The notes beneath the pieces are model-generated. The model saw nothing but the letters and a program-made list of their open reading frames with translations. It did not search any database and was not told the DNA's origin. This document shows, piece after piece, positions 22,924 through 64,000 of a DNA stretch of 64,000 nucleotides (its first letter is position 1; each line of letters starts with the position of its first letter). Source of the DNA: Metridium senile (taxonomy: Eukaryota > Cnidaria > Anthozoa > Actiniaria > Metridiidae). Position numbers and translations under genes: made by a program. The stretch is from the NCBI GenBank assembly GCA_949775045.1, contig OX459102.1:9209738-9273737 (forward strand), written 5' to 3'.

Positions 22924-40359
<17,436 letters not shown>

Positions 40360-40480
40360 GCTTTCCTGATCGATCGGCTGATTCGTGATCACATGATCAA
40401 GATTTCCCGCGCTTTTGGGAGCTTTAACGCCATAACGAGGCTGCCTCTTCTAGACAATTGCTGAATTGGGTTCCCTGTGT
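40360..40480 (-). promoter_or_regulatory. MCM2 proximal promoter with E2F-type site
   Basis: Immediately upstream of the MCM2 ATG is TTTCCCGCGC (40403-40412), a match to the E2F consensus TTTSSCGC. It lies in a short GC-richer stretch that also has the palindromic GATCGATC and GATCACATGATC. E2F control of MCM genes is well established in animals; its use here is inferred. Confidence 0.65.
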
Positions 40481-40653
40481 ATCCTGATTTTATAATTACT
40501 AATTTTATTTCATTGATTCATTCTATGTGCACTATCCAGTATTTTTTATGTTATTCTTCTATTCCAACATCCTTTATATATGTACAATTATTAATTCAAT
40601 TTTATTGATTATAATTCACTTTAATAATATTAAATATTTTTACTATATATTTG

Positions 40654-41144
40654 CAGTGTCGTGACATGGTATATGGGATCAGGGATCAGCATTATTATTA
40701 TTATTATTGCTTTGGGATCGGGATCACAGCCACTGGGATCAGGATCATGAGAAAATATCGCCGAATCAGGGATCAAATTAATCAGGGATCAGAATCGAAA
40801 TAAAATTTGAGGGGTGGCGAATGGTACCTTCAAACTGACGCTAAGTCTCGGAGTCTCGAATTTTCTAAATTGTTGGTCTCAAAATCTCATTTTTTAAAAA
40901 CGACAGTCTCGGAGTCTCGAATTACTGCCAAGGCTAATATGTTCTACGTTATGTTTACATTTCCGAAAAAATGTATAATTCAAGCATAATTAGATTAGAT
41001 AGTAAGGTGTTGTTGCAGTAAAATCTCGTTCTCGGAAAACGTAAAGCAAAAAATCTCGGTCTCGAATTTTGAAAATTTGACGATCCAAATTTTGGTCAGA
41101 AATACGGGACCACGTGTAAAAAAATATACCATGTCACAACCCTG
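40654..41144. mobile_element. 491-bp inverted-repeat element with GGGATCA repeats
   Basis: The ends are inverted copies of CAGKGTYGTGACATGGTATA. Inside are a run of GGGATCA words, an ATT microsatellite and repeated GTCTCGGAGTCTCGAAT. Non-coding. Further copies lie in each large duplicate (for example 55903-56393). No clear target duplication. Confidence 0.6.
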
Positions 41145-41964
41145 CTGCTATGTATTTTGAGCAGCTAGCTCGCCGCTTTGCGCGTCTCAAAATACGTGGC
41201 AGGGAGAAAGTTAGTCAAGCCCGGCTTGTAACCAGGGTAGATAAAGCTCTACAATTAGCTGTAAATATTGATCTGAAGTGATTCACTTGTCCCAACATAT
41301 ATGTATCGAACAGACTCGGCTCTCGTTAATTACACAAAGTTTATTCATTGTGATGTTTTAAGCTTATCACTAATATATCATCGTAATCGTGAGCCCAGGA
41401 GAATACCACCAATACGATTTCATTCATTTATTATTGAGTTATATATTTACATAATTAATAATTGCACCGTTTTTTAATTAGTACTATTGATAATTGTAGA
41501 TACATTTTTTCGAATCTGCATGATAACTAATTAAAAGGGTATTATCTGTCTCGTTTTTATGGAAATCAGTGGACGTGTTAAATCAGGCATTATGTTTGTG
41601 CGCGCGCTCCTTACACCATGCACGTACCCACGTTTGAAATTTGAGAAAAGAGCACAAATCAGTTTGGAATAAGCTGGATTCAACAATCTTTTTTCAGTAT
41701 ATTATTAATAAAAAAAAATCGCACGATATTCTCGTACAATTCGCAATTCATAGATACTCGTAATGTTTTGAAAGTAAACCGTGAATTAGACTCGCCTAAA
41801 GGCTCGTCCAATTTTGAAATCTTTCAAAACATCACTCGTATACCTATTAATTTACGAATTGTACTCAAGATCGTGCGATTTCCGTCAGAAAATTTGGAAT
41901 AACAAATATACCGATTTTTTATGAAAACTGGTTTGACTGACAAGAATGTCATTTTTATATCGAG
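41145..41964. other. Spacer between the GGGATCA element and the 841-bp array
   Basis: AT-rich, no gene. A weak inverted repeat (TCGCACGATATTCTCGTACA near 41720 against its complement near 41860) marks a possible decayed element. The same stretch occurs in the other large duplicates. Confidence 0.5.
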
Positions 41965-42040
41965 CATTCATCCGCTCACAACCACTTCTACAGTTTCTTT
42001 TAAAGAAATTGACTTACTCAGTGAGCAAAACAAACAACCA

Positions 42041-42108
42041 AAGCTAAAAAGCAACTGACGAAGGATTATTTGGGATATAATCCGAAACCGGTCTTGCACC
42101 CATAGCTT
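42041..42108 (+). ncRNA. Hammerhead ribozyme (first of 16, period 841)
   Basis: Boxes in order: stem I outer AAGCT (42041-42045), loop AAAAA, stem I inner GCAA; core CTGACGA (42055-42061); an unpaired A; stem II GGATTAT/ATAATCC (7 bp) with loop TTGGGAT; GAAA (42084-42087); CCGGT, then C17 (42093). Cleavage is predicted between 42093 and 42094. Stem I then closes with TTGC, loop ACCCAT and AGCTT (42104-42108). All conserved core positions of the hammerhead are present. Stem III is ACCGGT with no loop, so folding is expected as a dimer. The extra A after CTGACGA is the one departure; it also occurs in dispersed relatives. Copies recur at 42041 + 841k, the last at 54656. Confidence 0.85.
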
Positions 42109-42707
42109 GCTTAATAATTAAGCAACGAAAATCTGTCAAGGATCTTCACAGACCTACAACTGTATAGTGTCTTAGAGATTAAATGAACACAAAGACTCTT
42201 TAGTCAGTGTTAAATTTATTTCTCTCGTTTATCTAAACATATTGATTACAACATTTGTACTGCAGTAACAAGCCTAGTTGATTACAATATCGTTTATATG
42301 ATAACACAAAAAGACACTCTAACATGACTGGTCTATTACTGGATTATATTCACCGCAATATAACACGATAACTTTATTCCGAAGAGTGTAGTTTGTGTGG
42401 CTTCGAACATACTATAACCTTGATTTACAAAAACCTCGTTTGCCCCTGTAATCGTACCCTACACTCTTCTTCAGTTGCTCGACCTGTTTCATTGTAAACT
42501 AAAAGAGCCATACCGTTATCGATCAAACTTACTGGTGATTTTAAGAACACGGCAAAGGAGTAACAAATCAGTGATTTTTCCTCAGAAATCTATTGCAAAC
42601 GACAAACTATTGCTAAAAAGATTCAATTAGAGATCACACCTTTAGACTGATCAGTGACCGTATAGAACAATGTATTTGCGCGATTTCTCGCCCCTCATTG
42701 TTTTACA

Positions 42708-42807
42708 ACCGGAAATACAACCTGATCAATAGTTCTTTTAAATGTCCAATCAGATTTCTCCTATTGAAATCTTTGATCTATAAAAAGGCAGCAATTTTGG
42801 TTGATCA
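42708..42807 (+). promoter_or_regulatory. Pol II-type promoter in each 841-bp monomer (first copy)
   Basis: ACCGGAAAT (ETS-like, 42708-42716), CCAAT (42746-42750), TATAAAAAG (42779-42787) and an initiator TCATTC with +1 A at 42807. The TATA-to-start distance is 28 nt. It repeats every 841 bp; the last TATA is at 54553. The predicted transcript reaches the hammerhead cleavage site after about 128 nt. Confidence 0.65.
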
Positions 42808-42947
42808 TTCATCCGCTCACAACCACTTCTACAGTTTCTTTTAAAGAAATTGACTTACTCAGTGAGCAAAACAAACAACCAAAGCTAAAAAGCAACTGAC
42901 GAAGGATTATTTGGGATATAATCCGAAACCGGTCTTGCACCCATAGC

Positions 42948-42966
42948 TTGCTTAATAATTAAGCAA
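42948..42966 (+). other. Palindrome just after the ribozyme
   Basis: TTGCTTAATAATTAAGCAA is a perfect inverted repeat sharing two bases with the outer stem I strand, so it may compete with ribozyme folding. It is present in every monomer (first copy at 42107-42125). Confidence 0.6.
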
Positions 42967-45900
42967 CGAAAATCTGTCAAGGATCTTCACAGACCTACAA
43001 CTGTATAGTGTCTTAGAGATTAAATGAACACAAAGACTCTTTAGTCAGTGTTAAATTTATTTCTCTCGTTTATCTAAACATATTGATTACAACATTTGTA
43101 CTGCAGTAACAAGCCTAGTTGATTACAATATCGTTTATATGATAACACAAAAAGACACTCTAACATGACTGGTCTATTACTGGATTATATTCACCGCAAT
43201 ATAACACGATAACTTTATTCCGAAGAGTGTAGTTTGTGTGGCTTCGAACATACTATAACCTTGATTTACAAAAACCTCGTTTGCCCCTGTAATCGTACCC
43301 TACACTCTTCTTCAGTTGCTCGACCTGTTTCATTGTAAACTAAAAGAGCCATACCGTTATCGATCAAACTTACTGGTGATTTTAAGAACACGGCAAAGGA
43401 GTAACAAATCAGTGATTTTTCCTCAGAAATCTATTGCAAACGACAAACTATTGCTAAAAAGATTCAATTAGAGATCACACCTTTAGACTGATCAGTGACC
43501 GTATAGAACAATGTATTTGCGCGATTTCTCGCCCCTCATTGTTTTACAACCGGAAATACAACCTGATCAATAGTTCTTTTAAATGTCCAATCAGATTTCT
43601 CCTATTGAAATCTTTGATCTATAAAAAGGCAGCAATTTTGGTTGATCATTCATCCGCTCACAACCACTTCTACAGTTTCTTTTAAAGAAATTGACTTACT
43701 CAGTGAGCAAAACAAACAACCAAAGCTAAAAAGCAACTGACGAAGGATTATTTGGGATATAATCCGAAACCGGTCTTGCACCCATAGCTTGCTTAATAAT
43801 TAAGCAACGAAAATCTGTCAAGGATCTTCACAGACCTACAACTGTATAGTGTCTTAGAGATTAAATGAACACAAAGACTCTTTAGTCAGTGTTAAATTTA
43901 TTTCTCTCGTTTATCTAAACATATTGATTACAACATTTGTACTGCAGTAACAAGCCTAGTTGATTACAATATCGTTTATATGATAACACAAAAAGACACT
44001 CTAACATGACTGGTCTATTACTGGATTATATTCACCGCAATATAACACGATAACTTTATTCCGAAGAGTGTAGTTTGTGTGGCTTCGAACATACTATAAC
44101 CTTGATTTACAAAAACCTCGTTTGCCCCTGTAATCGTACCCTACACTCTTCTTCAGTTGCTCGACCTGTTTCATTGTAAACTAAAAGAGCCATACCGTTA
44201 TCGATCAAACTTACTGGTGATTTTAAGAACACGGCAAAGGAGTAACAAATCAGTGATTTTTCCTCAGAAATCTATTGCAAACGACAAACTATTGCTAAAA
44301 AGATTCAATTAGAGATCACACCTTTAGACTGATCAGTGACCGTATAGAACAATGTATTTGCGCGATTTCTCGCCCCTCATTGTTTTACAACCGGAAATAC
44401 AACCTGATCAATAGTTCTTTTAAATGTCCAATCAGATTTCTCCTATTGAAATCTTTGATCTATAAAAAGGCAGCAATTTTGGTTGATCATTCATCCGCTC
44501 ACAACCACTTCTACAGTTTCTTTTAAAGAAATTGACTTACTCAGTGAGCAAAACAAACAACCAAAGCTAAAAAGCAACTGACGAAGGATTATTTGGGATA
44601 TAATCCGAAACCGGTCTTGCACCCATAGCTTGCTTAATAATTAAGCAACGAAAATCTGTCAAGGATCTTCACAGACCTACAACTGTATAGTGTCTTAGAG
44701 ATTAAATGAACACAAAGACTCTTTAGTCAGTGTTAAATTTATTTCTCTCGTTTATCTAAACATATTGATTACAACATTTGTACTGCAGTAACAAGCCTAG
44801 TTGATTACAATATCGTTTATATGATAACACAAAAAGACACTCTAACATGACTGGTCTATTACTGGATTATATTCACCGCAATATAACACGATAACTTTAT
44901 TCCGAAGAGTGTAGTTTGTGTGGCTTCGAACATACTATAACCTTGATTTACAAAAACCTCGTTTGCCCCTGTAATCGTACCCTACACTCTTCTTCAGTTG
45001 CTCGACCTGTTTCATTGTAAACTAAAAGAGCCATACCGTTATCGATCAAACTTACTGGTGATTTTAAGAACACGGCAAAGGAGTAACAAATCAGTGATTT
45101 TTCCTCAGAAATCTATTGCAAACGACAAACTATTGCTAAAAAGATTCAATTAGAGATCACACCTTTAGACTGATCAGTGACCGTATAGAACAATGTATTT
45201 GCGCGATTTCTCGCCCCTCATTGTTTTACAACCGGAAATACAACCTGATCAATAGTTCTTTTAAATGTCCAATCAGATTTCTCCTATTGAAATCTTTGAT
45301 CTATAAAAAGGCAGCAATTTTGGTTGATCATTCATCCGCTCACAACCACTTCTACAGTTTCTTTTAAAGAAATTGACTTACTCAGTGAGCAAAACAAACA
45401 ACCAAAGCTAAAAAGCAACTGACGAAGGATTATTTGGGATATAATCCGAAACCGGTCTTGCACCCATAGCTTGCTTAATAATTAAGCAACGAAAATCTGT
45501 CAAGGATCTTCACAGACCTACAACTGTATAGTGTCTTAGAGATTAAATGAACACAAAGACTCTTTAGTCAGTGTTAAATTTATTTCTCTCGTTTATCTAA
45601 ACATATTGATTACAACATTTGTACTGCAGTAACAAGCCTAGTTGATTACAATATCGTTTATATGATAACACAAAAAGACACTCTAACATGACTGGTCTAT
45701 TACTGGATTATATTCACCGCAATATAACACGATAACTTTATTCCGAAGAGTGTAGTTTGTGTGGCTTCGAACATACTATAACCTTGATTTACAAAAACCT
45801 CGTTTGCCCCTGTAATCGTACCCTACACTCTTCTTCAGTTGCTCGACCTGTTTCATTGTAAACTAAAAGAGCCATACCGTTATCGATCAAACTTACTGGT

Positions 45901-48900
45901 GATTTTAAGAACACGGCAAAGGAGTAACAAATCAGTGATTTTTCCTCAGAAATCTATTGCAAACGACAAACTATTGCTAAAAAGATTCAATTAGAGATCA
46001 CACCTTTAGACTGATCAGTGACCGTATAGAACAATGTATTTGCGCGATTTCTCGCCCCTCATTGTTTTACAACCGGAAATACAACCTGATCAATAGTTCT
46101 TTTAAATGTCCAATCAGATTTCTCCTATTGAAATCTTTGATCTATAAAAAGGCAGCAATTTTGGTTGATCATTCATCCGCTCACAACCACTTCTACAGTT
46201 TCTTTTAAAGAAATTGACTTACTCAGTGAGCAAAACAAACAACCAAAGCTAAAAAGCAACTGACGAAGGATTATTTGGGATATAATCCGAAACCGGTCTT
46301 GCACCCATAGCTTGCTTAATAATTAAGCAACGAAAATCTGTCAAGGATCTTCACAGACCTACAACTGTATAGTGTCTTAGAGATTAAATGAACACAAAGA
46401 CTCTTTAGTCAGTGTTAAATTTATTTCTCTCGTTTATCTAAACATATTGATTACAACATTTGTACTGCAGTAACAAGCCTAGTTGATTACAATATCGTTT
46501 ATATGATAACACAAAAAGACACTCTAACATGACTGGTCTATTACTGGATTATATTCACCGCAATATAACACGATAACTTTATTCCGAAGAGTGTAGTTTG
46601 TGTGGCTTCGAACATACTATAACCTTGATTTACAAAAACCTCGTTTGCCCCTGTAATCGTACCCTACACTCTTCTTCAGTTGCTCGACCTGTTTCATTGT
46701 AAACTAAAAGAGCCATACCGTTATCGATCAAACTTACTGGTGATTTTAAGAACACGGCAAAGGAGTAACAAATCAGTGATTTTTCCTCAGAAATCTATTG
46801 CAAACGACAAACTATTGCTAAAAAGATTCAATTAGAGATCACACCTTTAGACTGATCAGTGACCGTATAGAACAATGTATTTGCGCGATTTCTCGCCCCT
46901 CATTGTTTTACAACCGGAAATACAACCTGATCAATAGTTCTTTTAAATGTCCAATCAGATTTCTCCTATTGAAATCTTTGATCTATAAAAAGGCAGCAAT
47001 TTTGGTTGATCATTCATCCGCTCACAACCACTTCTACAGTTTCTTTTAAAGAAATTGACTTACTCAGTGAGCAAAACAAACAACCAAAGCTAAAAAGCAA
47101 CTGACGAAGGATTATTTGGGATATAATCCGAAACCGGTCTTGCACCCATAGCTTGCTTAATAATTAAGCAACGAAAATCTGTCAAGGATCTTCACAGACC
47201 TACAACTGTATAGTGTCTTAGAGATTAAATGAACACAAAGACTCTTTAGTCAGTGTTAAATTTATTTCTCTCGTTTATCTAAACATATTGATTACAACAT
47301 TTGTACTGCAGTAACAAGCCTAGTTGATTACAATATCGTTTATATGATAACACAAAAAGACACTCTAACATGACTGGTCTATTACTGGATTATATTCACC
47401 GCAATATAACACGATAACTTTATTCCGAAGAGTGTAGTTTGTGTGGCTTCGAACATACTATAACCTTGATTTACAAAAACCTCGTTTGCCCCTGTAATCG
47501 TACCCTACACTCTTCTTCAGTTGCTCGACCTGTTTCATTGTAAACTAAAAGAGCCATACCGTTATCGATCAAACTTACTGGTGATTTTAAGAACACGGCA
47601 AAGGAGTAACAAATCAGTGATTTTTCCTCAGAAATCTATTGCAAACGACAAACTATTGCTAAAAAGATTCAATTAGAGATCACACCTTTAGACTGATCAG
47701 TGACCGTATAGAACAATGTATTTGCGCGATTTCTCGCCCCTCATTGTTTTACAACCGGAAATACAACCTGATCAATAGTTCTTTTAAATGTCCAATCAGA
47801 TTTCTCCTATTGAAATCTTTGATCTATAAAAAGGCAGCAATTTTGGTTGATCATTCATCCGCTCACAACCACTTCTACAGTTTCTTTTAAAGAAATTGAC
47901 TTACTCAGTGAGCAAAACAAACAACCAAAGCTAAAAAGCAACTGACGAAGGATTATTTGGGATATAATCCGAAACCGGTCTTGCACCCATAGCTTGCTTA
48001 ATAATTAAGCAACGAAAATCTGTCAAGGATCTTCACAGACCTACAACTGTATAGTGTCTTAGAGATTAAATGAACACAAAGACTCTTTAGTCAGTGTTAA
48101 ATTTATTTCTCTCGTTTATCTAAACATATTGATTACAACATTTGTACTGCAGTAACAAGCCTAGTTGATTACAATATCGTTTATATGATAACACAAAAAG
48201 ACACTCTAACATGACTGGTCTATTACTGGATTATATTCACCGCAATATAACACGATAACTTTATTCCGAAGAGTGTAGTTTGTGTGGCTTCGAACATACT
48301 ATAACCTTGATTTACAAAAACCTCGTTTGCCCCTGTAATCGTACCCTACACTCTTCTTCAGTTGCTCGACCTGTTTCATTGTAAACTAAAAGAGCCATAC
48401 CGTTATCGATCAAACTTACTGGTGATTTTAAGAACACGGCAAAGGAGTAACAAATCAGTGATTTTTCCTCAGAAATCTATTGCAAACGACAAACTATTGC
48501 TAAAAAGATTCAATTAGAGATCACACCTTTAGACTGATCAGTGACCGTATAGAACAATGTATTTGCGCGATTTCTCGCCCCTCATTGTTTTACAACCGGA
48601 AATACAACCTGATCAATAGTTCTTTTAAATGTCCAATCAGATTTCTCCTATTGAAATCTTTGATCTATAAAAAGGCAGCAATTTTGGTTGATCATTCATC
48701 CGCTCACAACCACTTCTACAGTTTCTTTTAAAGAAATTGACTTACTCAGTGAGCAAAACAAACAACCAAAGCTAAAAAGCAACTGACGAAGGATTATTTG
48801 GGATATAATCCGAAACCGGTCTTGCACCCATAGCTTGCTTAATAATTAAGCAACGAAAATCTGTCAAGGATCTTCACAGACCTACAACTGTATAGTGTCT

Positions 48901-51900
48901 TAGAGATTAAATGAACACAAAGACTCTTTAGTCAGTGTTAAATTTATTTCTCTCGTTTATCTAAACATATTGATTACAACATTTGTACTGCAGTAACAAG
49001 CCTAGTTGATTACAATATCGTTTATATGATAACACAAAAAGACACTCTAACATGACTGGTCTATTACTGGATTATATTCACCGCAATATAACACGATAAC
49101 TTTATTCCGAAGAGTGTAGTTTGTGTGGCTTCGAACATACTATAACCTTGATTTACAAAAACCTCGTTTGCCCCTGTAATCGTACCCTACACTCTTCTTC
49201 AGTTGCTCGACCTGTTTCATTGTAAACTAAAAGAGCCATACCGTTATCGATCAAACTTACTGGTGATTTTAAGAACACGGCAAAGGAGTAACAAATCAGT
49301 GATTTTTCCTCAGAAATCTATTGCAAACGACAAACTATTGCTAAAAAGATTCAATTAGAGATCACACCTTTAGACTGATCAGTGACCGTATAGAACAATG
49401 TATTTGCGCGATTTCTCGCCCCTCATTGTTTTACAACCGGAAATACAACCTGATCAATAGTTCTTTTAAATGTCCAATCAGATTTCTCCTATTGAAATCT
49501 TTGATCTATAAAAAGGCAGCAATTTTGGTTGATCATTCATCCGCTCACAACCACTTCTACAGTTTCTTTTAAAGAAATTGACTTACTCAGTGAGCAAAAC
49601 AAACAACCAAAGCTAAAAAGCAACTGACGAAGGATTATTTGGGATATAATCCGAAACCGGTCTTGCACCCATAGCTTGCTTAATAATTAAGCAACGAAAA
49701 TCTGTCAAGGATCTTCACAGACCTACAACTGTATAGTGTCTTAGAGATTAAATGAACACAAAGACTCTTTAGTCAGTGTTAAATTTATTTCTCTCGTTTA
49801 TCTAAACATATTGATTACAACATTTGTACTGCAGTAACAAGCCTAGTTGATTACAATATCGTTTATATGATAACACAAAAAGACACTCTAACATGACTGG
49901 TCTATTACTGGATTATATTCACCGCAATATAACACGATAACTTTATTCCGAAGAGTGTAGTTTGTGTGGCTTCGAACATACTATAACCTTGATTTACAAA
50001 AACCTCGTTTGCCCCTGTAATCGTACCCTACACTCTTCTTCAGTTGCTCGACCTGTTTCATTGTAAACTAAAAGAGCCATACCGTTATCGATCAAACTTA
50101 CTGGTGATTTTAAGAACACGGCAAAGGAGTAACAAATCAGTGATTTTTCCTCAGAAATCTATTGCAAACGACAAACTATTGCTAAAAAGATTCAATTAGA
50201 GATCACACCTTTAGACTGATCAGTGACCGTATAGAACAATGTATTTGCGCGATTTCTCGCCCCTCATTGTTTTACAACCGGAAATACAACCTGATCAATA
50301 GTTCTTTTAAATGTCCAATCAGATTTCTCCTATTGAAATCTTTGATCTATAAAAAGGCAGCAATTTTGGTTGATCATTCATCCGCTCACAACCACTTCTA
50401 CAGTTTCTTTTAAAGAAATTGACTTACTCAGTGAGCAAAACAAACAACCAAAGCTAAAAAGCAACTGACGAAGGATTATTTGGGATATAATCCGAAACCG
50501 GTCTTGCACCCATAGCTTGCTTAATAATTAAGCAACGAAAATCTGTCAAGGATCTTCACAGACCTACAACTGTATAGTGTCTTAGAGATTAAATGAACAC
50601 AAAGACTCTTTAGTCAGTGTTAAATTTATTTCTCTCGTTTATCTAAACATATTGATTACAACATTTGTACTGCAGTAACAAGCCTAGTTGATTACAATAT
50701 CGTTTATATGATAACACAAAAAGACACTCTAACATGACTGGTCTATTACTGGATTATATTCACCGCAATATAACACGATAACTTTATTCCGAAGAGTGTA
50801 GTTTGTGTGGCTTCGAACATACTATAACCTTGATTTACAAAAACCTCGTTTGCCCCTGTAATCGTACCCTACACTCTTCTTCAGTTGCTCGACCTGTTTC
50901 ATTGTAAACTAAAAGAGCCATACCGTTATCGATCAAACTTACTGGTGATTTTAAGAACACGGCAAAGGAGTAACAAATCAGTGATTTTTCCTCAGAAATC
51001 TATTGCAAACGACAAACTATTGCTAAAAAGATTCAATTAGAGATCACACCTTTAGACTGATCAGTGACCGTATAGAACAATGTATTTGCGCGATTTCTCG
51101 CCCCTCATTGTTTTACAACCGGAAATACAACCTGATCAATAGTTCTTTTAAATGTCCAATCAGATTTCTCCTATTGAAATCTTTGATCTATAAAAAGGCA
51201 GCAATTTTGGTTGATCATTCATCCACTCACAACCACTTCTACAGTTTCTTTTAAAGAAATTGACTTACTCAGTGAGCAAAACAAACAACCAAAGCTAAAA
51301 AGCAACTGACGAAGGATTATTTGGGATATAATCCGAAACCGGTCTTGCACCCATAGCTTGCTTAATAATTAAGCAACGAAAATCTGTCAAGGATCTTCAC
51401 AGACCTACAACTGTATAGTGTCTTAGAGATTAAATGAACACAAAGACTCTTTAGTCAGTGTTAAATTTATTTCTCTCGTTTATCTAAACATATTGATTAC
51501 AACATTTGTACTGCAGTAACAAGCCTAGTTGATTACAATATCGTTTATATGATAACACAAAAAGACACTCTAACATGACTGGTCTATTACTGGATTATAT
51601 TCACCGCAATATAACACGATAACTTTATTCCGAAGAGTGTAGTTTGTGTGGCTTCGAACATACTATAACCTTGATTTACAAAAACCTCGTTTGCCCCTGT
51701 AATCGTACCCTACACTCTTCTTCAGTTGCTCGACCTGTTTCATTGTAAACTAAAAGAGCCATACCGTTATCGATCAAACTTACTGGTGATTTTAAGAACA
51801 CGGCAAAGGAGTAACAAATCAGTGATTTTTCCTCAGAAATCTATTGCAAACGACAAACTATTGCTAAAAAGATTCAATTAGAGATCACACCTTTAGACTG

Positions 51901-54900
51901 ATCAGTGACCGTATAGAACAATGTATTTGCGCGATTTCTCGCCCCTCATTGTTTTACAACCGGAAATACAACCTGATCAATAGTTCTTTTAAATGTCCAA
52001 TCAGATTTCTCCTATTGAAATCTTTGATCTATAAAAAGGCAGCAATTTTGGTTGATCATTCATCCGCTCACAACCACTTCTACAGTTTCTTTTAAAGAAA
52101 TTGACTTACTCAGTGAGCAAAACAAACAACCAAAGCTAAAAAGCAACTGACGAAGGATTATTTGGGATATAATCCGAAACCGGTCTTGCACCCATAGCTT
52201 GCTTAATAATTAAGCAACGAAAATCTGTCAAGGATCTTCACAGACCTACAACTGTATAGTGTCTTAGAGATTAAATGAACACAAAGACTCTTTAGTCAGT
52301 GTTAAATTTATTTCTCTCGTTTATCTAAACATATTGATTACAACATTTGTACTGCAGTAACAAGCCTAGTTGATTACAATATCGTTTATATGATAACACA
52401 AAAAGACACTCTAACATGACTGGTCTATTACTGGATTATATTCACCGCAATATAACACGATAACTTTATTCCGAAGAGTGTAGTTTGTGTGGCTTCGAAC
52501 ATACTATAACCTTGATTTACAAAAACCTCGTTTGCCCCTGTAATCGTACCCTACACTCTTCTTCAGTTGCTCGACCTGTTTCATTGTAAACTAAAAGAGC
52601 CATACCGTTATCGATCAAACTTACTGGTGATTTTAAGAACACGGCAAAGGAGTAACAAATCAGTGATTTTTCCTCAGAAATCTATTGCAAACGACAAACT
52701 ATTGCTAAAAAGATTCAATTAGAGATCACACCTTTAGACTGATCAGTGACCGTATAGAACAATGTATTTGCGCGATTTCTCGCCCCTCATTGTTTTACAA
52801 CCGGAAATACAACCTGATCAATAGTTCTTTTAAATGTCCAATCAGATTTCTCCTATTGAAATCTTTGATCTATAAAAAGGCAGCAATTTTGGTTGATCAT
52901 TCATCCGCTCACAACCACTTCTACAGTTTCTTTTAAAGAAATTGACTTACTCAGTGAGCAAAACAAACAACCAAAGCTAAAAAGCAACTGACGAAGGATT
53001 ATTTGGGATATAATCCGAAACCGGTCTTGCACCCATAGCTTGCTTAATAATTAAGCAACGAAAATCTGTCAAGGATCTTCACAGACCTACAACTGTATAG
53101 TGTCTTAGAGATTAAATGAACACAAAGACTCTTTAGTCAGTGTTAAATTTATTTCTCTCGTTTATCTAAACATATTGATTACAACATTTGTACTGCAGTA
53201 ACAAGCCTAGTTGATTACAATATCGTTTATATGATAACACAAAAAGACACTCTAACATGACTGGTCTATTACTGGATTATATTCACCGCAATATAACACG
53301 ATAACTTTATTCCGAAGAGTGTAGTTTGTGTGGCTTCGAACATACTATAACCTTGATTTACAAAAACCTCGTTTGCCCCTGTAATCGTACCCTACACTCT
53401 TCTTCAGTTGCTCGACCTGTTTCATTGTAAACTAAAAGAGCCATACCGTTATCGATCAAACTTACTGGTGATTTTAAGAACACGGCAAAGGAGTAACAAA
53501 TCAGTGATTTTTCCTCAGAAATCTATTGCAAACGACAAACTATTGCTAAAAAGATTCAATTAGAGATCACACCTTTAGACTGATCAGTGACCGTATAGAA
53601 CAATGTATTTGCGCGATTTCTCGCCCCTCATTGTTTTACAACCGGAAATACAACCTGATCAATAGTTCTTTTAAATGTCCAATCAGATTTCTCCTATTGA
53701 AATCTTTGATCTATAAAAAGGCAGCAATTTTGGTTGATCATTCATCCGCTCACAACCACTTCTACAGTTTCTTTTAAAGAAATTGACTTACTCAGTGAGC
53801 AAAACAAACAACCAAAGCTAAAAAGCAACTGACGAAGGATTATTTGGGATATAATCCGAAACCGGTCTTGCACCCATAGCTTGCTTAATAATTAAGCAAC
53901 GAAAATCTGTCAAGGATCTTCACAGACCTACAACTGTATAGTGTCTTAGAGATTAAATGAACACAAAGACTCTTTAGTCAGTGTTAAATTTATTTCTCTC
54001 GTTTATCTAAACATATTGATTACAACATTTGTACTGCAGTAACAAGCCTAGTTGATTACAATATCGTTTATATGATAACACAAAAAGACACTCTAACATG
54101 ACTGGTCTATTACTGGATTATATTCACCGCAATATAACACGATAACTTTATTCCGAAGAGTGTAGTTTGTGTGGCTTCGAACATACTATAACCTTGATTT
54201 ACAAAAACCTCGTTTGCCCCTGTAATCGTACCCTACACTCTTCTTCAGTTGCTCGACCTGTTTCATTGTAAACTAAAAGAGCCATACCGTTATCGATCAA
54301 ACTTACTGGTGATTTTAAGAACACGGCAAAGGAGTAACAAATCAGTGATTTTTCCTCAGAAATCTATTGCAAACGACAAACTATTGCTAAAAAGATTCAA
54401 TTAGAGATCACACCTTTAGACTGATCAGTGACCGTATAGAACAATGTATTTGCGCGATTTCTCGCCCCTCATTGTTTTACAACCGGAAATACAACCTGAT
54501 CAATAGTTCTTTTAAATGTCCAATCAGATTTCTCCTATTGAAATCTTTGATCTATAAAAAGGCAGCAATTTTGGTTGATCATTCATCCGCTCACAACCAC
54601 TTCTACAGTTTCTTTTAAAGAAATTGACTTACTCAGTGAGCAAAACAAACAACCAAAGCTAAAAAGCAACTGACGAAGGATTATTTGGGATATAATCCGA
54701 AACCGGTCTTGCACCCATAGCTTGCTTAATAATTAAGCAACGAAAATCTGTCAAGGATCTTCACAGACCTACAACTGTATAGTGTCTTAGAGATTAAATG
54801 AACACAAAGACTCTTTAGTCAGTGTTAAATTTATTTCTCTCGTTTATCTAAACATATTGATTACAACATTTGTACTGCAGTAACAAGCCTAGTTGATTAC

Positions 54901-55035
54901 AATATCGTTTATATGATAACACAAAAAGACACTCTAACATGACTGGTCTATTACTGGATTATATTCACCGCAATATAACACGATAACTTTATTCCGAAGA
55001 GTGTAGTTTGTGTGGCTTCGAACATACTATAACCC

Positions 55036-57211
55036 ATATTTCACGAAAGTTATCTGTGTTTGCAAGTTACACGTTGTAATTTTGTAAAAATATCAGACGT
55101 ATTTATTTTAAAACTTTTTTCGATTGATAACAGCGAAACAAAACATTCATAATAATATATCAATATACTAGACTTCGCAAAATATCGAGAATAGCTTGAT
55201 ACAAGAAAAAAAAATACAAAGTTCTTCGTGAATGAATACGCGAAAACTAGAACGCATTGAAAAAACATTTCGCTTATAAATGAACGAATTCCAGCCCATA
55301 AAACGTACACAATTTTCCTTCAAAAAACCGTTTATGGTTTTGAAGATGGGATAGAATAGTTAATAAAGCATTTAAAGCGCTTCTCGAGTAGAGAATTTAA
55401 TATACTCAAAGTTCTCCAAAAGTGGAGGATGCGAAGGAATTCGGATCGTAAAAGTCGAAAAATTACAAGAAATTTTCTCCTGATTGCTACAAAAATTCTC
55501 ATGCACATAGAAATAAGTAATATAAAAATAAACAGCAAAAAGTTAGTTAGTTTAGAAGGATGAATAAGTAGTAAAAAAGGAATAATTTCGCCAATCTTAC
55601 CGCCATGCTTTCCTGATCGATCGGCTGATTCGTGATCACATGATCAAGATTTCCCGCGCTTTTGGGAGCTTTAACGCCATAACGAGGCTGCCTCTTCTAG
55701 ACAATTCTTCTGAATTGGGTTCCCTGTGTATCCTGATTTTATAATTACTAATTTTATTTCATTGATTCATTCTATGTGCACTATCCAGTATTTTTTATGT
55801 TATTCTTCTATTCCAACATCCTTTATATATGTACAATTATTAATTCAATTTTATTGATTATAATTCACTTTAATAATATTAAATATTTTTACTATATATT
55901 TGCAGTGTCGTGACATGGTATATGGGATCAGGGATCAGCATTATTATTATTATTATTGCTTTGGGATCGGGATCACAGCCACTGGGATCAGGATCATGAG
56001 AAAATATCGCCGAATCAGGGATCAAATTAATCAGGGATCAGAATCGAAATAAAATTTGAGGGGTGGCGAATGGTACCTTCAAACTGACGCTAAGTCTCGG
56101 AGTCTCGAATTTTCTAAATTGTTGGTCTCAAAATCTCATTTTTTAAAAACGACAGTCTCGGAGTCTCGAATTACTGCCAAGGCTAATATGTTCTACGTTA
56201 TGTTTACATTTCCGAAAAAATGTATAATTCAAGCATAATTAGATTAGATAGTAAGGTGTTGTTGCAGTAAAATCTCGTTCTCGGAAAACGTAAAGCAAAA
56301 AATCTCGGTCTCGAATTTTGAAAATTTGACGATCCAAATTTTGGTCAGAAATACGGGACCACGTGTAAAAAAATATACCATGTCACAACCCTGCTGCTAT
56401 GTATTTTGAGCAGCTAGCTCGCCGCTTTGCGCGTCTCAAAATACGTGGCTGGGAGAAAGTTAGTCAAGCCCGGCTTGTAACCAGGGTAGATAAAGCTCTA
56501 CAATTAGCTGTAAATATTGATCTGAAGTGATTCACTTGTCCCAACATATATGTATCGAACAGACTCGGCTCTCTAATTACACAAAGTTTATTCATTGTGA
56601 TGTTTTAAGCTTATCACTAATATATCATCGTAATCGTGAGCCCAGGAGAATACCACCAATACGATTTCATTCATTTATTATTGAGTTATATATTTACATA
56701 ATTAATAATTGCACCGTTTTTTAATTAGTACTATTGATAATTGTATAGATACATTTTTTCGAATCTGCATGATAACTAATTAAAAGGGTATTATCTGTCA
56801 CGTTTTTATGGAAATCAGTGGACGTGTTAAATCAGGCATTATGTTTGTGCGCGCGCTCCTTACACCATGCACGTACCCACGTTTGAAATTTGAGAAAAGA
56901 GCACAAATCAGTTTGGAATAAGCTGGATTCAACAATCTTTTTTCAGTATATTATTAATAAAAAAAATCGCACGATATTCTCGTACAATTCGCAATTCATA
57001 GATACTTGTAATGTTTTGAAAGTAAACAAATTAGACTCGCCTAAAGGCTCGTCCAATTTTGAAATCTTTCAAAACATCACTCGTATACCTATTAATTTAC
57101 GAATTGTACTCAAGATCGTGCGATTTCCGTCAGAAAATTTGGAATAACAAATATACCGATTTTTTATGAAAACTGGTTTGACTGACAAGAATGTCATTTT
57201 TATATCGAGCA
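55036..57211. repeat. 2.17-kb flanking duplicate R, right copy
   Basis: It starts exactly where the array ends, at the base homologous to 39793, deep inside what is MCM2 intron 1 in the left copy. To the right it continues into sequence (57212 onward) absent from the left copy. Confidence 0.93.
55601..55720 (-). promoter_or_regulatory. Second copy of MCM2 promoter and exon 1
   Basis: ATGGCG is at 55601-55606 with the same gtaagattgg donor, and the E2F-type site is at 55650-55659. It belongs to the 2.17-kb duplicate on the right side of the 841-bp array. It could be a distant alternative first exon, but no coding exon 2 lies between it and the array. Confidence 0.7.
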
Positions 57212-57411
57212 CGCCAAAAAAAGATTTTTGTATAACAGTCGTTATTTAAAAACAAATATCGTGCAAAGACATGGCTATAAATAAAAGGACAAATGATCGT
57301 GCAAAGAAATGGCTCAAAATCAAAGGACATATAATTCATATTATTATACATTTTACTAACTACATTGAATCTGATTGGCTGAGAGCACACGGCTAAATCT
57401 GAATAGCATGT

Positions 57412-57460
57412 GAACTTGACAGTGATAATTGCATTGTCTGTAGTTATCACTGTCAAGTTC
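57412..57460. repeat. Hairpin with 17-bp arms
   Basis: GAACTTGACAGTGATAA and its reverse complement are separated by 15 nt. It lies within a non-autonomous element (about 57340-57575, ends TATTATACATTTT inverted) present in tandem units 1 and 2 and missing from unit 3. Confidence 0.6.
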
Positions 57461-57806
57461 CCAGGCTCTCTCCGTTCTCAGGGAGTTGATGTGAAAATGG
57501 CAGCGAGATTTGCTTGTTATTGTCTCTTTTACCTGATTATAATTGTACTTTTACTTTAAAAAATGTATAATAAAACAATTATTGAATTCACAGACCTCGG
57601 TCTTGATAATTTACGATATCATACTCAACCTCATCCAATAATTGCTTAATGTTAACACCTCGTTGTCTGTGGTTAATGTTTTGTTCATCATGGGAGAGGA
57701 TGGATGGGAAATGAATATATATATCTATTCAGTTTACGGTCTTTTTAATCTTTTTATAAAATATAACTATTATCATACATCTACGGAGCCCCTAAAGAGT
57801 CATCTC

Positions 57807-58023
57807 GCTTTTTTTCTTTCGCTACTATGTCGACATATATGTTGACATATATCTCGACTTTTGAACCAGGTCGACATATATGTGGACATATATGTGGACA
57901 TATATCTCGACTTTTGAACCAAGTCGACATATATATGTGGACATATATCTCGACTTTTGAACCAGGTGGTCGACATATATGTCGCGATATATATTTCGTC
58001 ATAGTAGCGAAAGAAAAAAAAGC
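57807..58023. mobile_element. 217-bp palindromic element with TCGACATATAT repeats
   Basis: The terminal inverted repeats are gcttttttTCTTTCGCTACTATG-like. Between them are about three copies of a unit that reads CGACATATATGTGGACATAT followed by CTCGACTTTTGAACCAGG. Further copies are at 60855-61071 and, shortened, about 63606-63772. It looks like a MITE expanded internally. Confidence 0.65.
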
Positions 58024-58261
58024 ACCTCGTGTAATCCTTTTTAAGCATGTTAAATACAAAAAAATACAATCAACTAGCTTTATGTATAAACACTTGGTAT
58101 TATGACAAGTTGAAAACATATAATCATATCCTTTATTTAGTAGAATTTTTAAAAAAGACCCCAAACTAGCCAGGGCAAACAATCTTCATTCTTGAGAGGG
58201 GGTTATTTCACAAGAAATTGAAACAAAGGCCTTAACCTACTTGAGTTTGTTTTGCTACGAG

Positions 58262-58600
58262 TAGTTACTCATGTTTACAAGGCCTAAGATGGCCTTAGTC
58301 CTAGCTATATTAGTAATATGTTCAAGTCAATATCAACTATGTCAAAACGTACCACTAGGAGTTCAACTAACAATAATTTATGGTTGCCTAATGCTAAATT
58401 ATCCATTACAAGAAAAGGTCTCCGCTATAATGGAGCAGTACTGTATAATAGTCTACCTGTAGATATTAGTTCTGCAAAATCAATTATTAAGATTTTCAAA
58501 AAAAAATCATATAAATACTTTTTGGACATGCATGTTATATCTTCCTAGAACTTATTTAATGTGAAATTACATTTTATGTATATATTCTCTATTTCATATC
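58262..58600 (+). pseudogene. 3' tail of a non-LTR retrotransposon
   Basis: The frame 58318-58548 encodes TRSSTNNNLWLPNAKLSI, then YNGAVLYNSLPVDISSAKS and IIKIFKKKSYKYFL, the recognisable C-terminal tail of CR1/Jockey-type reverse transcriptases. RT and endonuclease domains are absent, so the copy is 5'-truncated. It is repeated at 61310-61648 as part of the tandem unit. Confidence 0.8.
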
Positions 58601-58671
58601 TAAATTCTTAGTTTAGAAGGATGAATAAGTAGTAAAAAAGGAATAATTTCGCCAATCTTACCGCCATGCTT

Positions 58672-58790
58672 TCCTGATCGATCGGCTGATTCGTGATCAC
58701 ATGATCAAGATTTCCCGCGCTTTTGGGAGCTTTAACGCCATAACGAGGCTGCCTCTTCTAGACAATTGCTGAATTGGGTTCCCTGTGTAT
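58672..58790 (-). promoter_or_regulatory. Third copy of MCM2 promoter and exon 1
   Basis: ATGGCG at 58672-58677 with an intact donor; E2F-type site at 58711-58720. It sits at the start of the second unit of the 3,048-bp tandem repeat. Confidence 0.7.
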
Positions 58791-61309
58791 CCTGATTTTA
58801 TTTCATTGATTCATTCTATGTGCACTATCCCGTATTTTTATGTTATTCTTCTATTCCAACATCCTTTATATATGTACAATTATTAATTCAATTTTATTGA
58901 TTATAATCCACTTTAATAATATTAAATATTTTTACTATATATTTGCAGTGTCGTGACATGGTATATGGGATCAGGGATCAGCATTATTATTATTATTATT
59001 ATTGCTTGGGGATCGGGATCACAGCCACTGGGATCGGGATCATGAGAAAATATCGCCGAATCAGGGATCAAATTATAATCAGGGATCAGAATCGAAATAA
59101 AATTTGAGGGGTGGCGAATGGTACCTTCAAACTGACGCTAAGTCTCGGAGTCTCGAATTTTCTAAATTGTTGGTCTCAAAATCTCATTTTTTAAAAACGA
59201 CAGTCTCGGAGTCTCGAATTACTGCCAAGGCTAATATGTTCTACGTTATGTTTACATTTCCGAAAAAATGTATAATTCAAGCATAATTAGATTAGATAGT
59301 AAGGTGTTGTTGCAGTAAAATCTCGTTCTCGGAAAACGTAAAGCAAAAAATCTCGGTCTCGAATTTTGAAAATTTGACGATCCAAATTTTGGTCAGAAAT
59401 ACGGGACCACGTGTAAAAAAATATACCATGTCACAACCCTGCTGCTATGTATTTTGAGCAGCTAGCTCGCCGCTTTGCGCGTCTCAAAATACGTGGCTGG
59501 GAGAAAGTTAGTCAAGCCCGGCTTGTAACCAGGGTAGATAAAGCTCTACAATTAGCTGTAAATATTGATCTGAAGTGATTCACTTGTCCCAACATATATG
59601 TATCGAACAGACTCGGCTCTCTAATTACACAAAGTTTATTCATTGTGATGTTTTAAGCTTATCACTAATATATCATCGTAATCGTGAGCCCAGGAGAATA
59701 CCACCAATACGATTTCATTCATTTATTATTGAGTTATATATTTACATAATTAATAATTGCACCGTTTTTTAATTAGTACTATTGATAATTGTATAGATAC
59801 ATTTTTTCGAATCTGCATGATAACTAATTAAAAGGGTATTATCTGTCACGTTTTTATGGAAATCAGTGGACGTGTTAAATCAGGCATTATGTTTGTGCGC
59901 GCGCTCCTTACACCATGCACGTACCCACGTTTGAAATTTGAGAAAAGAGCACAAATCAGTTTGGAATAAGCTGGATTCAACAATCTTTTTTCAGTATATT
60001 ATTAATAAAAAAAATCGCACGATATTCTCGTACAATTCGCAATTCATAGATACTTGTAATGTTTTGAAAGTAAACAAATTAGACTCGCCTAAAGGCTCGT
60101 CCAATTTTGAAATCTTTCAAAACATCACTCGTATACCTATTAATTTACGAATTGTACTCAAGATCGTGCGATTTCCGTCAGAAAATTTGGAATAACAAAT
60201 ATACCGATTTTTTATGAAAACTGGTTTGACTGACAAGAATGTCATTTTTATATCGAGCACGCCAAAAAAAGATTTTTGTATAACAGTCGTTATTTAAAAA
60301 CAAATATCGTGCAAAGACATGGCTATAAATAAAAGGACAAATGATCGTGCAAAGAAATGGCTCAAAATCAAAGGACATATAATTCATATTATTATACATT
60401 TTACTAACTACATTGAATCTGATTGGCTGAGAGCACACGGCTAAATCTGAATAGCATGTGAACTTGACAGTGATAATTGCATTGTCTGTAGTTATCACTG
60501 TCAAGTTCCCAGGCTCTCTCCGTTCTCAGGGAGTTGATGTGAAAATGGCAGCGAGATTTGCTTGTTATTGTCTCTTTTACCTGATTATAATTGTACTTTT
60601 ACTTTAAAAAATGTATAATAAAACAATTATTGAATTCACAGACCTCGGTCTTGATAATTTACGATATCATACTCAACCTCATCCAATAATTGCTTAATGT
60701 TAACACCTCGTTGTCTGTGGTTAATGTTTTGTTCATCATGGGAGAGGATGGATGGGAAATGAATATATATATCTATTCAGTTTACGGTCTTTTTAATCTT
60801 TTTATAAAATATAACTATTATCATACATCTACGGAGCCCCTAAAGAGTCATCTCGCTTTTTTTCTTTCGCTACTATGTCGACATATATGTTGACATATAT
60901 CTCGACTTTTGAACCAGGTCGACATATATGTGGACATATATGTGGACATATATCTCGACTTTTGAACCAAGTCGACATATATATGTGGACATATATCTCG
61001 ACTTTTGAACCAGGTGGTCGACATATATGTCGCGATATATATTTCGTCATAGTAGCGAAAGAAAAAAAAGCACCTCGTGTAATCCTTTTTAAGCATGTTA
61101 AATACAAAAAAATACAATCAACTAGCTTTATGTATAAACACTTGGTATTATGACAAGTTGAAAACATATAATCATATCCTTTATTTAGTAGAATTTTTAA
61201 AAAAGACCCCAAACTAGCCAGGGCAAACAATCTTCATTCTTGAGAGGGGGTTATTTCACAAGAAATTGAAACAAAGGCCTTAACCTACTTGAGTTTGTTT
61301 TGCTACGAG

Positions 61310-61648
61310 TAGTTACTCATGTTTACAAGGCCTAAGATGGCCTTAGTCCTAGCTATATTAGTAATATGTTCAAGTCAATATCAACTATGTCAAAACGTAC
61401 CACTAGGAGTTCAACTAACAATAATTTATGGTTGCCTAATGCTAAATTATCCATTACAAGAAAAGGTCTCCGCTATAATGGAGCAGTATTGTATAATAGT
61501 CTACCTGTAGATATTAGTTCTGCAAAATCAATTATTAAGATTTTCAAAAAAAAATCATATAAATACTTTTTGGACATGCATGTTATATCTTCCTAGAACT
61601 TATTTAATGTGAAATTACATTTTATGTATATATTCTCTATTTCATATC
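61310..61648 (+). pseudogene. Second copy of the non-LTR retrotransposon tail
   Basis: Identical to the 58262-58600 copy apart from a rare substitution; carried by the 3,048-bp duplication rather than by a new insertion. Confidence 0.8.
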
Positions 61649-61709
61649 TAAATTCTTAGTTTAGAAGGATGAATAAGTAGTAAAAAAGGAATAATTTCGC
61701 CAATCTTAC

Positions 61710-61828
61710 CGCCATGCTTTCCTGATCGATCGGCTGATTCGTGATCACATGATCAAGATTTCCCGCGCTTTTGGGAGCTTTAACGCCATAACGAGGCTGC
61801 CTCTTCTAGACAATTGCTGAATTGGGTT
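61710..61828 (-). promoter_or_regulatory. Fourth copy of MCM2 promoter and exon 1
   Basis: ATGGCG at 61710-61715 with an intact donor; E2F-type site at 61759-61768. It lies in the last tandem unit, which is cut by the window edge. Confidence 0.7.
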
Positions 61829-64000
61829 CCCTGTGTATCCTGATTTTATTTCATTGATTCATTCTATGTGCACTATCCCGTATTTTTATGTTATTCTTCT
61901 ATTCCAACATCCTTTATATATGTACAATTATTAATTCAATTTTATTGATTATAATCCACTTTAATAATATTAAATATTTTTACTATATATTTGCAGTGTC
62001 GTGACATGGTATATGGGATCAGGGATCAGCATTATTATTATTATTATTATTGCTTGGGGATCGGGATCACAGCCACTGGGATCGGGATCATGAGAAAATA
62101 TCGCCGAATCAGGGATCAAATTATAATCAGGGATCAGAATCGAAATAAAATTTGAGGGGTGGCGAATGGTACCTTCAAACTGACGCTAAGTCTCGGAGTC
62201 TCGAATTTTCTAAATTGTTGGTCTCAAAATCTCATTTTTTAAAAACGACAGTCTCGGAGTCTCGAATTACTGACAAGGCTAATATGTTCTACGTTATGTT
62301 TACATTTCCGAAAAAATGTATAATTTAAGCATAATTAGATTAGATAGTAAGGTGTTGATAGATAGTAAAATCTCGTTCTCGGAAAACGTAAAGCAAAAAA
62401 TCTCGGTCTCGAATTTTGAAAATTTGACGATCCAAATTTTGGTCAGAAATACGGGACCACGTGTAAAAAAATATACCATGTCACAACCCTGCTGCTATGT
62501 ATTTTGAGCAGCTAGCTCGCCGCTTTGCGCGTCTCAAAATACGTGGCAGGGAGAAAGTTAGTCAAGCCCGGCTTGTAACCAGGGTAGATAAAGCTCTACA
62601 ATTAGCTGTAAATATTGATCTGAAGTGATTCACTTGTCCCAACATATACGTGTCGAACAGACTTGGCTCTCGTTAATTACACAAAGTTTATAATTCATTG
62701 TGATGTTTTAAGCTTATCACTAATATATCATCGTATAATCGTGAGCCCAGGAGAATATCACCAATACGATTTCATTCATTTATTATTGAGTTATATATTT
62801 ACATAATTAATAATTGCACCGTTTTTTAATTAGTACTATTGATAATTGTAGATACATTTTTTCGAATCTGCATGATAATTAATTATAAAAGGGTATTATC
62901 TGTCTCGTTTTTATGGAAATCAGTGGACGTGTTAAATCAGGCATTATGTTTGTGCGCGCGCTCCTTACGCCATGCACGTACCCACGTTTAAAATTTGAGA
63001 AAAGAGCACAAATCAGTTTGGAATAAGCTGGATTCAACAATCTTTTTTCAGTATATTATTAATAAAAAAAATCGCACGATATTCTCGTACAATTCGCAAT
63101 TCATAGATACTCGTAATGTTTTGAAAGTAAACAAATTAGACTCGCCTAAAGGCTCGTCCAATTTTGAAATCTTTCAAAACATCACTCGTATACCTATTAA
63201 TTTACGAATTGTACTCAAGATCGTGCGATTTCCGTCAGAAAATTTGGAATAACAAATATACCGATTTTTTATGAAAACTGGTTTGACTGACAAGAATGTC
63301 ATTTTTATATCGAGCACGCCAAAATGAAAAATTTTTGTATAACGTGAGTCGTTATTTAAAAACAAATATCGTGCAAAGACATGGCTATAAATAAAAGGAC
63401 ATATGATCGTGCAAAGAAATGGCTTAAAATCAAAGGACATATAATTCATAATGTTAACACCTCGTTGTCTGTGGTTAATGTTTTGTTCATCATGGGAGGG
63501 GATGGATGGGAAATGAATATATATCTATTCAGTTTACGGTCTTTTTAATCTTTTTATAAAATATAACTATTATCATACATCTACGGAGCCCCTAAAGAGT
63601 CATCTCGCTTTTTTTCTTTCGCTACTATGTCGACATATATGTGGACATATATCTCGACTTTTGAACCAAGTCGACATATATATATATATGTGGACATATA
63701 TCTAAACTTTTGAACCAGGTGGTTGACATATATGTCGCGATATATATGTCGTCATAGTAGCGAAAAAAAAAAAGCACCTCGTGTAATCCTTTTTAAGCAT
63801 GTTAAATACAAAAAAATACAATCAACTAGCTTTATGTATAAACACTTGGTATTATGACAAGTTGAAAACATATAATCATATCCTTTATTTAGTAGAATTT
63901 TTTAAAAAGACCCCAAACTAGCCAGGGCAAACAATCTTAATTCTTGGCAGGGGGTATTTTCACAAGAAATTGAAACAAAGGCCTTAACCTACTTGAGTTT

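Follow-up and report, generated by a model that had tools for sequence, protein, structure and literature searches.

The window analysed here is a 64,000-nucleotide stretch of the genome of Metridium senile (contig OX459102.1, positions 9,209,738 to 9,273,737), and plain coordinates below are counted from its first base. It contains a tandem array of an 841-bp unit with a predicted hammerhead ribozyme (HHR) and a promoter-like element. An earlier note, made from the sequence, had described this array as a macrosatellite of self-cleaving RNA. That description is incomplete, and a free-standing satellite is not supported: the tail, the promoter region and the HHR of the unit are homologous to a longer element with a reverse transcriptase (RT) open reading frame (ORF), and the unit has dispersed relatives in the genome. 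As argued below, the unit is probably a derivative of that element.

The extent and period of the array are as the earlier note gave them, with 16 CTGACGA cores following one another at exact 841-bp steps (42055, 42896 ... 54670). The 68-nt HHR motif is identical in all 16 copies, and among the 15 full intervals compared, 13 others equal the first and one differs by a single substitution (Table 1). The array begins at unit +1, the predicted transcription start, a position known to within one base on either side because the flank shares CA, and it ends at unit +453, the same point as the 3' ends of the dispersed copies. The GC content of the unit is about 35%. A six-frame scan found no ATG-started ORF longer than 45 codons in the unit, and no tRNA was found in the window. 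Both array ends abut exactly the same 2,173-bp sequence, the two flanking copies having 6 mismatches and 6 gaps in 2,182; an exact duplication of about 2.17 kb is atypical for target-primed insertion. Once sites common with the downstream repeats are set aside, about three substitutions are private to the flanks, as against one in the 13-kb array, suggesting that the array expanded after insertion or was kept uniform. We infer that the array is a recent tandem arrangement of the unit, either younger than its flanks or homogenised. Another tandem array occupies 55547-64000, where units of about 3.05 kb repeat with 98.6% identity; it carries on from the right flank of the first and has a fold-back stretch at about 57.8-58.0 kb.

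Table 1. Features of the array, of the representative unit and of the flanks (window coordinates; unit positions are preceded by +)
Feature	Position	Strand	Remark
Tandem array	41965/41966 to 55033/55034	+	15.5 units x 841 bp, ~13 kb
Representative unit	42807..43647	+	numbered from predicted start A = +1
First HHR copy	42041..42108	+	repeated every 841 bp to 54656-54723, 16 in total
Second HHR copy	42882..42949	+	predicted cleavage 3' of C at 42934, unit +128/+129
CCAAT box	42746..42750	+	about -61
TATA box, TATAAAAA	42779..42786	+	
Initiator-like TCATTC	42805..42810	+	A at 42807 = +1, 28 nt from first T of TATA
72-nt 3' tail, unit +383..+454	43189..43260	+	~93% identical in RT-encoding relative
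Putative HHR blocker, CTTCTTCAGTTGCT, unit +501..+514	43307..43320	+	13/14 complementary to HHR catalytic strand
Sole substitution among full units	51225	+	G to A
2.17-kb direct duplication, left copy	39793..41966		adjoins array
2.17-kb direct duplication, right copy	55036..57211		99.1% identical to left copy

By sequence and predicted pairing, each unit carries a complete type I hammerhead, with the CUGANGA...GAAA...UH core and stems I and II, and self-cleavage is predicted at the junction that the earlier note had correctly placed at 42934/42935. Stem I consists of an outer helix of 6 bp (AAGCUA/UAGCUU), an internal loop and an inner helix (GCAA/UUGC). The core reads CUGACGA and then GAAA, with a C at the cut site, one extra A lies between A9 and stem II, and stem II (GGAUUAU/AUAAUCC) is closed by the loop UUGGGAU. 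In the case of stem III, a single A-U pair surrounds the palindromic CCGG (A-CCGG-U), so that a single motif is practically without this stem: the monomer has 1 bp plus CCGG, and 6 bp are reached only in a dimer. Closing stem III in the monomer costs energy (-13.0 to -6.7 kcal/mol). The parts named in the earlier note are present as described in every unit, apart from three amendments: the 6-bp outer stem I, the extra A, and a stem III reduced to the A-U pair.

A descriptor requiring CTGANGA, a stem II of at least 4 bp, GAAA, stem III or a palindromic loop, and a stem I of at least 4 bp matched the 16 array sites and nothing else in the window. It gave no match on the minus strand of the window or in 20 Mb of first-order Markov sequence built from the unit, and a 17th plus-strand CTGACGA, at 23867, is no hammerhead by this descriptor. 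Relatives were also sought in viral contigs, where a loose HHR pattern found at least 120 loci; in none of those listed do stem I and stem II each have four pairs; two tighter patterns gave one match each, neither with a matching stem II, and these candidates were rejected.

Alignment of the HHRs of the window and of loci L146, L139, L137, L136 and L141 revealed three base pairs in which both partners had changed. One lies in stem II (U-A to C-G); the other two belong to a predicted pseudoknot between loop II and the internal loop, which pairs in the same register as UGGG/CCCA in the window and as AGAG/CUCU in L146. Three such double-sided changes were reached by none of 500 shuffles, and slid versions of the alignment show none. 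A 4-bp loop-loop pairing on its own has a chance expectation of 6%, and the pairing gains weight from the in-register change in L146. The outer part of stem I scored low (70%) in the covariation analysis, seemingly in part because L137 and L139 were misaligned. A pseudoknot of this kind is said to occur in about 40% of hammerheads (PMC3088659, quoted, like every source identified here by a PMC number, from part of its text).

The earlier note had also proposed that every unit has its own promoter, and a promoter-like combination of TATA box, initiator (Inr) and CCAAT box is indeed present in each unit. The random expectation per 841 bp is 0.0035 for TATA with Inr, and 0.00025 when the CCAAT box is included. 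Near the predicted start lie the left end of the array, the 5' end of L136 (+4) and that of L139 (+5 with strict scoring, about -10 with relaxed scoring). From the TATA/Inr arrangement and these 5' ends we infer that RNA polymerase II (Pol II) would start at +1.

A search of the genome (389 Mb, 169 contigs), with 39 of 115 candidates scored, returned at least 52 matches outside the window; 51 of the 52 match rows, corresponding to 35 loci, were read, the row left out being C1:44553675. The dispersed copies are spread over many contigs, and the unit is thereby confirmed by independent loci. Their 3' ends are strongly concentrated. With strict scoring, 18 of 48 matched stretches from the 35 loci end in +452..+456, and 26 of the loci have an end in +450..+467, compared with 0.75 expected; relaxed scoring gives 15 such stretches out of 45, and 28 of the 35 loci. 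At these junctions the sequence runs to ...CTATAACC (unit +454) or a near variant, and then passes into unrelated sequence. The remaining stretches end at inner breaks or elsewhere, as does L164, at +440 with strict scoring. At other loci the 72-nt tail occurs without the rest of the unit.

For the 5' ends, 19 copies with a readable start were used, the array included. Fifteen of the 35 loci were excluded by eye as the RT element itself, tail-only copies or internal fragments (L142, L145-L149, L154, L157-L163 and L165), L138 was merged into L137 and L164 into L144, and L150, whose edge is unclear, was entered as starting at +194. Three of the 19 copies start at +1..+5 (the array, L136 and L139; p 2e-4). 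Five others, on five contigs and with unrelated flanks, start at +129..+131, that is, at or no more than 2 nt from the predicted cut: alignment puts L134 and L152 exactly at +129, reading puts L153 there too (TTGCACCCAT marks its boundary, followed by a deletion to +177), and L135 and L151 start at +131. L152 is an old copy, with 72% identity. Five starts in three positions have a binomial probability of 6e-9 (n=19, uniform over 841 positions). Leaving L153 out gives 6e-7 for four starts in those three positions and 2e-4 for the two at +129; with about ten of the excluded fragments restored (n=29), the values are 6e-8, and 4e-6 without L153. These 5' ends are an indirect indication of cleavage by the HHR in vivo. 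If reverse transcription begins near +454, an end at +129 also calls for a template that was linear and cut, as a circle would be copied past +129.

Two pairs of loci share flanking sequence. L137 and L138 have both flanks in common, as expected of a later duplication of one insertion, and L144 and L164 have a common 5' flank (78 of 80 letters by reading) and different 3' flanks, perhaps representing a chimeric repeat.

Two loci, L146 and L148, reveal the RT-encoding relative, hereafter the partner. L146 comprises, in order, a tail, the blocker stretch, the promoter region, the HHR, ORF pieces and a second tail, and its segment from tail to HHR (1986-2597) is about 70% identical to the unit. 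Its ORF pieces (2620-5362) lie in several frames, as in a broken copy, and an ATG at 2629 stands 45 nt past its predicted HHR cut. The ORF is surrounded by 121-bp repeats that are 96.7% identical, and the HHR lies outside these repeats. In L148, an open RT frame of 433 aa is followed by the same 3' region and tail. The partner has the reverse transcriptase expected of a Penelope-like element (PLE), and L146 has an HHR near the ORF start within a repeated layout of the pseudo-long-terminal-repeat (pseudo-LTR) kind. The RT motifs of the partner look Penelope-like. Among the matches listed (at least 120), many RT homologs carry PF00078, and the named ones are coral and Nematostella proteins that are 55-66% identical.

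The unit resembles the 3' end of the partner over +158..+454 (64-67% identity in L146, L147 and L148), and on this likeness it corresponds to the partner minus nearly all of its ORF. The 3' end, the promoter region and the HHR are common to the two, and the ORF is absent from the unit, as in a non-autonomous derivative. In the RT family of L146, L148, P0123 and P0138, the ORF ends soon after ...LKD.LV.AK(L/I). That family is common in cnidarian records among the named matches, no GIY-YIG domain was found in the members scanned, and it possibly represents an endonuclease-less Penelope-like clade.

A further element of the unit is a putative blocker, or anti-ribozyme, that lies 425 nt from the HHR strand, about half a unit away. 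Of 5000 shuffles, 2 reached complementarity as good for the catalytic strand; when any 14-mer of the HHR was allowed, 5 of 1000 did so. The blocker is kept at 14 of 14 positions in L146. In the predicted circle, core positions of the HHR pair with the blocker at only 9 of the 14 sites (P 0.66-0.78), and the catalytic stem I has a P of 0.003. Short transcripts (145-300 nt) are dominated by the HHR fold (stem I 0.77-0.80, stem II 0.93-0.95); it is near nothing at 520 nt, 0.13 at 560 nt, and near zero from 700 nt. On these predicted folds, it is suggestive that the blocker may switch the HHR off. Apart from the incomplete pairing in the circle, three observations count against it: in L146 it is conserved as part of a block (+395..+514) where conservation is 90-100% throughout; the HHR fold is down to 0.2-0.3 at 400-480 nt, ahead of blocker synthesis; and stem I is buried as fully in 18 of 200 shuffled backgrounds. 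The circle of the complementary (minus) strand is predicted to be more stable than that of the HHR strand, at -211 versus -176.5 kcal/mol.

We consider it probable that the unit derives from a Penelope-like RT element by internal deletion, is non-autonomous and ORF-less, and was retroposed from linear RNA; it is the homology of tail, promoter region and HHR to the RT element that makes it look like a non-autonomous retroelement derivative. In the proposed mechanism, Pol II would start at +1, and the HHR would fold early and cut at +128/+129. To judge by sequence and energies, cutting would work best when tandem copies form a double hammerhead, since stem III is the self-complementary ACCGGU. 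An RT, presumably that of the partner, would then recognise the tail, start at about +454 and copy the linear RNA to its 5' end, stopping at +129 if the RNA was cut and at about +1 if it was not, and both classes are seen in the genome. Templates reading through more than one unit would give copies with a complete promoter, and one such copy, L131, is seen. Lastly, an insertion flanked by the 2.17-kb duplication would have been expanded or homogenised at the DNA level to 15.5 units. Released 841-nt monomers may circularise, and the anti-ribozyme might conceivably keep a circle from being cut again.

A bolder proposal, to which we give less than even credence, is that the HHR defines the 5' end of the RNA that transposes, that the cut RNA (+129..+454) is preferred by the partner RT, and that the anti-ribozyme switches the HHR off in the complete transcript. 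If this were true, a single sequence would decide whether the RNA becomes a cut template, an uncut multimer from which full promoters are renewed, or a stable circle, and animal retrozymes would parasitise Penelope-like elements as short interspersed nuclear elements (SINEs) do long ones (LINEs).

A number of observations weigh against a cut, linear RNA of Penelope-like origin. With respect to the ends, 9 of the 35 loci lack any stretch that ends near +454 with strict scoring, and 11 of the 19 copies start elsewhere than in the two classes, scattered as early stops of the RT would leave them. Without L139, the class at the transcription start is weak (2 of 19, p 0.006). The left end of the array at the transcription start, read literally, needs a 15-fold uncut transcript; such a transcript is possible as the origin of the array and is not preferred, later expansion being invoked. 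Of the 16 dispersed stretches tested, which come from 15 loci, 14 show no target-site duplication, and the other two, in L137 and L138, have a 6-nt duplication inside a microsatellite. For the ribozyme, the HHR core is mutated in L136, L137/L138 and L141, and these copies are probably dead. The covariance-model search proposed as a check in the earlier note gave no Rfam match at the gathering threshold over the window, and no match to the Rfam hammerhead families up to E=10, in a search run without a positive control, in 1,901 bases with two motifs or in 81 bases with one. The miss is probably due to the near absence of stem III and to the extra A, and is likely a limitation of the models and not a disproof of the HHR; given the monomer's stem III, the Rfam result was set aside as either proof or disproof. 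The catalytic fold is, in addition, less stable than the minimum free energy (MFE) fold, both in the monomer (-13.0 versus -16.5 kcal/mol) and when two copies share ACCGGU (-33.7 versus -36.0 kcal/mol). In the covariation analysis, the count of further pair types, one of five measures, was reached by 71 of 500 shuffles, and all three covarying pairs come from one diverged sequence, L146. For the partner, the RVT_1 match of L148 (E=6.6e-6) falls below the Pfam cut-off, and one of six homologs scanned, P0134, is above it. Pfam found no GIY-YIG domain in four L146 pieces, one L145 piece, L148 or the six homologs, so the partner is not filed as a canonical PLE; the label 'Penelope-like' rests on its architecture and on the look of its RT motifs. 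Endonuclease-deficient PLEs do exist, to judge by the title of a cited reference. Lastly, for a PLE of Anolis, HHR cleavage was dispensable in vitro, and the main substrate there was RNA that had not been cut, according to the portion of PMC11167929 quoted.

Three explanations compete with a retroposed, ORF-less derivative. In a classical metazoan retrozyme, self-cleaved 841-nt circles would be copied by rolling-circle reverse transcription into tandem identical copies. The tandem type I HHR repeats, the GC content, the lack of an ATG ORF above 45 codons and the near-identity of the copies are all as described in PMC7229834, and none of 200 shuffled backgrounds is as stable as the predicted circle. 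Yet the circle is only 58% paired by prediction, compared with the more than 70% quoted in PMC4918200, and copies made from circles should show no 5' phase, whereas starts at +129 and about +1 are above chance and ends near +454 need linear templates. By these ends, rolling-circle copying as the sole origin was rejected for the dispersed copies, and a retrozyme of the classical type is an unlikely source of the unit.

Nor do events at the DNA level seem sufficient. If a retroelement fragment had been amplified by unequal exchange or extrachromosomal circles, with the HHR as a passenger, the array would be a DNA satellite, and its one substitution in 13 kb against the 6 mismatches in 2,182 (or about 3) of the flanks does indicate an array that is younger or homogenised. 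Such amplification accounts for the copy number of the array but not for dispersed copies with RNA-like ends, nor for an array that ends at the same phases as they do, and we regard it as very unlikely to be the whole explanation. An assembly artefact, in which collapsed or mis-joined haplotypes would have created the copy number or the flank duplication, might be suspected from the near-total identity of the units and from the exact 2.17-kb duplication at both ends. It is quite unlikely when weighed against the independent loci on other contigs that confirm the unit, and a mis-join alone would not place both array ends at element ends. Retroposition of an ORF-less derivative from linear RNA is the reading that we retain.

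Among the other features of the window, the replication gene that the earlier note had placed beside the array is MCM2 by domain and sequence match. It occupies 23429-39000 on the minus strand, with an MCM OB domain (32.9-33.4 kb) and an MCM2 winged helix (23.4-23.8 kb), and an acidic stretch at about 38.8-39.0 kb looks like its N-terminal exon. The array lies about 3 kb upstream of this gene, an adjacency that is probably a coincidence given the dispersed copies on many contigs. A palindrome at 38180-38394 (107-nt arms, 88% complementary, 1 nt between them) and a (GTAA)n array at 39.0-39.3 kb are found nearby. Further to the left, a DIRS-like element (7358-11591, plus strand) has a gag-like ORF, an RT with an RNase H-like match and many relatives in public records, and a tyrosine recombinase (Phage_integrase). 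At 3605-6300 on the minus strand, a DUF913 exon at 3.6-4.1 kb presumably belongs to a HUWE1-type ubiquitin ligase, and the stretch at 5.9-6.3 kb on that strand has no Pfam match.

Of the known systems, metazoan non-LTR retrozymes are the most obvious point of comparison, as they too are tandem, noncoding and of low GC content (below 45%, as in the unit), with type I HHRs (PMC7229834). One of them, HHR_Amex1 of the axolotl, has a stem III of one pair with a palindromic tetraloop and is more active as a dimer (PMC7229834), similar to the stem III of the unit. At 841 bp, the unit is larger than the 150-450 bp of these retrozymes (PMC7229834), and the earlier note was right to call its size unusual for an animal HHR repeat, on the literature surveyed. 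It further differs from them in its promoter-like element, retrozymes being said in a 2020 review to seem without promoters of their own (PMC7761336), in the tail, promoter region and HHR held in common with an RT element, and in its preferred linear ends near +129 and +454. The possible anti-ribozyme is another difference, as most metazoan retrozyme circles, some mussel ones excepted, are said to be without one (PMC7229834). In size the unit is closer to the plant LTR retrozymes, with units of 600-1000 nt (PMC4918200, PMC12029980, PMC7761336, PMC6155905). A promoter has been shown for the plant retrozyme NbRZ1, and that of the unit is predicted from its sequence; the HHR of plant retrozymes is blocked by pairing, and the blocker of the unit is putative (PMC4918200, PMC7229834). 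Plant LTR retrozymes have type III HHRs, whereas the unit has a type I HHR and an animal host. The HHR W-elements of Schistosoma (PMC8490949) resemble the layout of the unit, with large tandem arrays, active type I HHRs and dispersed autosomal copies, but their monomers are 332-428 bp, one family being SINE-like. The hammerhead of the chrysanthemum chlorotic mottle viroid (CChMVd) is of type III. In its (+) strand, as in the unit, A9 is followed by an additional A before stem II begins to pair (PMC3705267).

In the case of PLEs, the parallels are with elements that carry an HHR in pseudo-LTRs, where the HHR lies near the ORF start and the pseudo-LTR or tail is repeated, as in L146, in a tandem organisation (PMC11167929, PMC7761336). 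The PLE RT starts internally at an AC-rich stem-loop (PMC11167929, PMC7761336), and the unit has an AC-rich 3' end. Unlike PLEs, the unit lacks an ORF, and its HHR is not of the minimal form but has complete stems I and II with a loop-loop contact; no GIY-YIG domain was found in its partner. The role of PLE hammerheads was called unknown in the 2020 review (PMC7761336), and the mobiliser of animal retrozymes was an inference in PMC7229834. In the literature searched, a survey that did not extend to the primary papers on PLE hammerheads, no report was found of insertions whose 5' ends lie at an HHR cut, and the part of PMC11167929 quoted describes no RNA reads at the PLE cut site, whereas here the genomic 5' ends lie at the predicted cut. 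One genome thus brings together a retrozyme-like tandem unit, an RT-encoding relative in which the tail recurs and the HHR covaries, and inserted copies that start at or no more than 2 nt from the predicted cut, making both the role of PLE hammerheads and the mobiliser of retrozymes directly testable.

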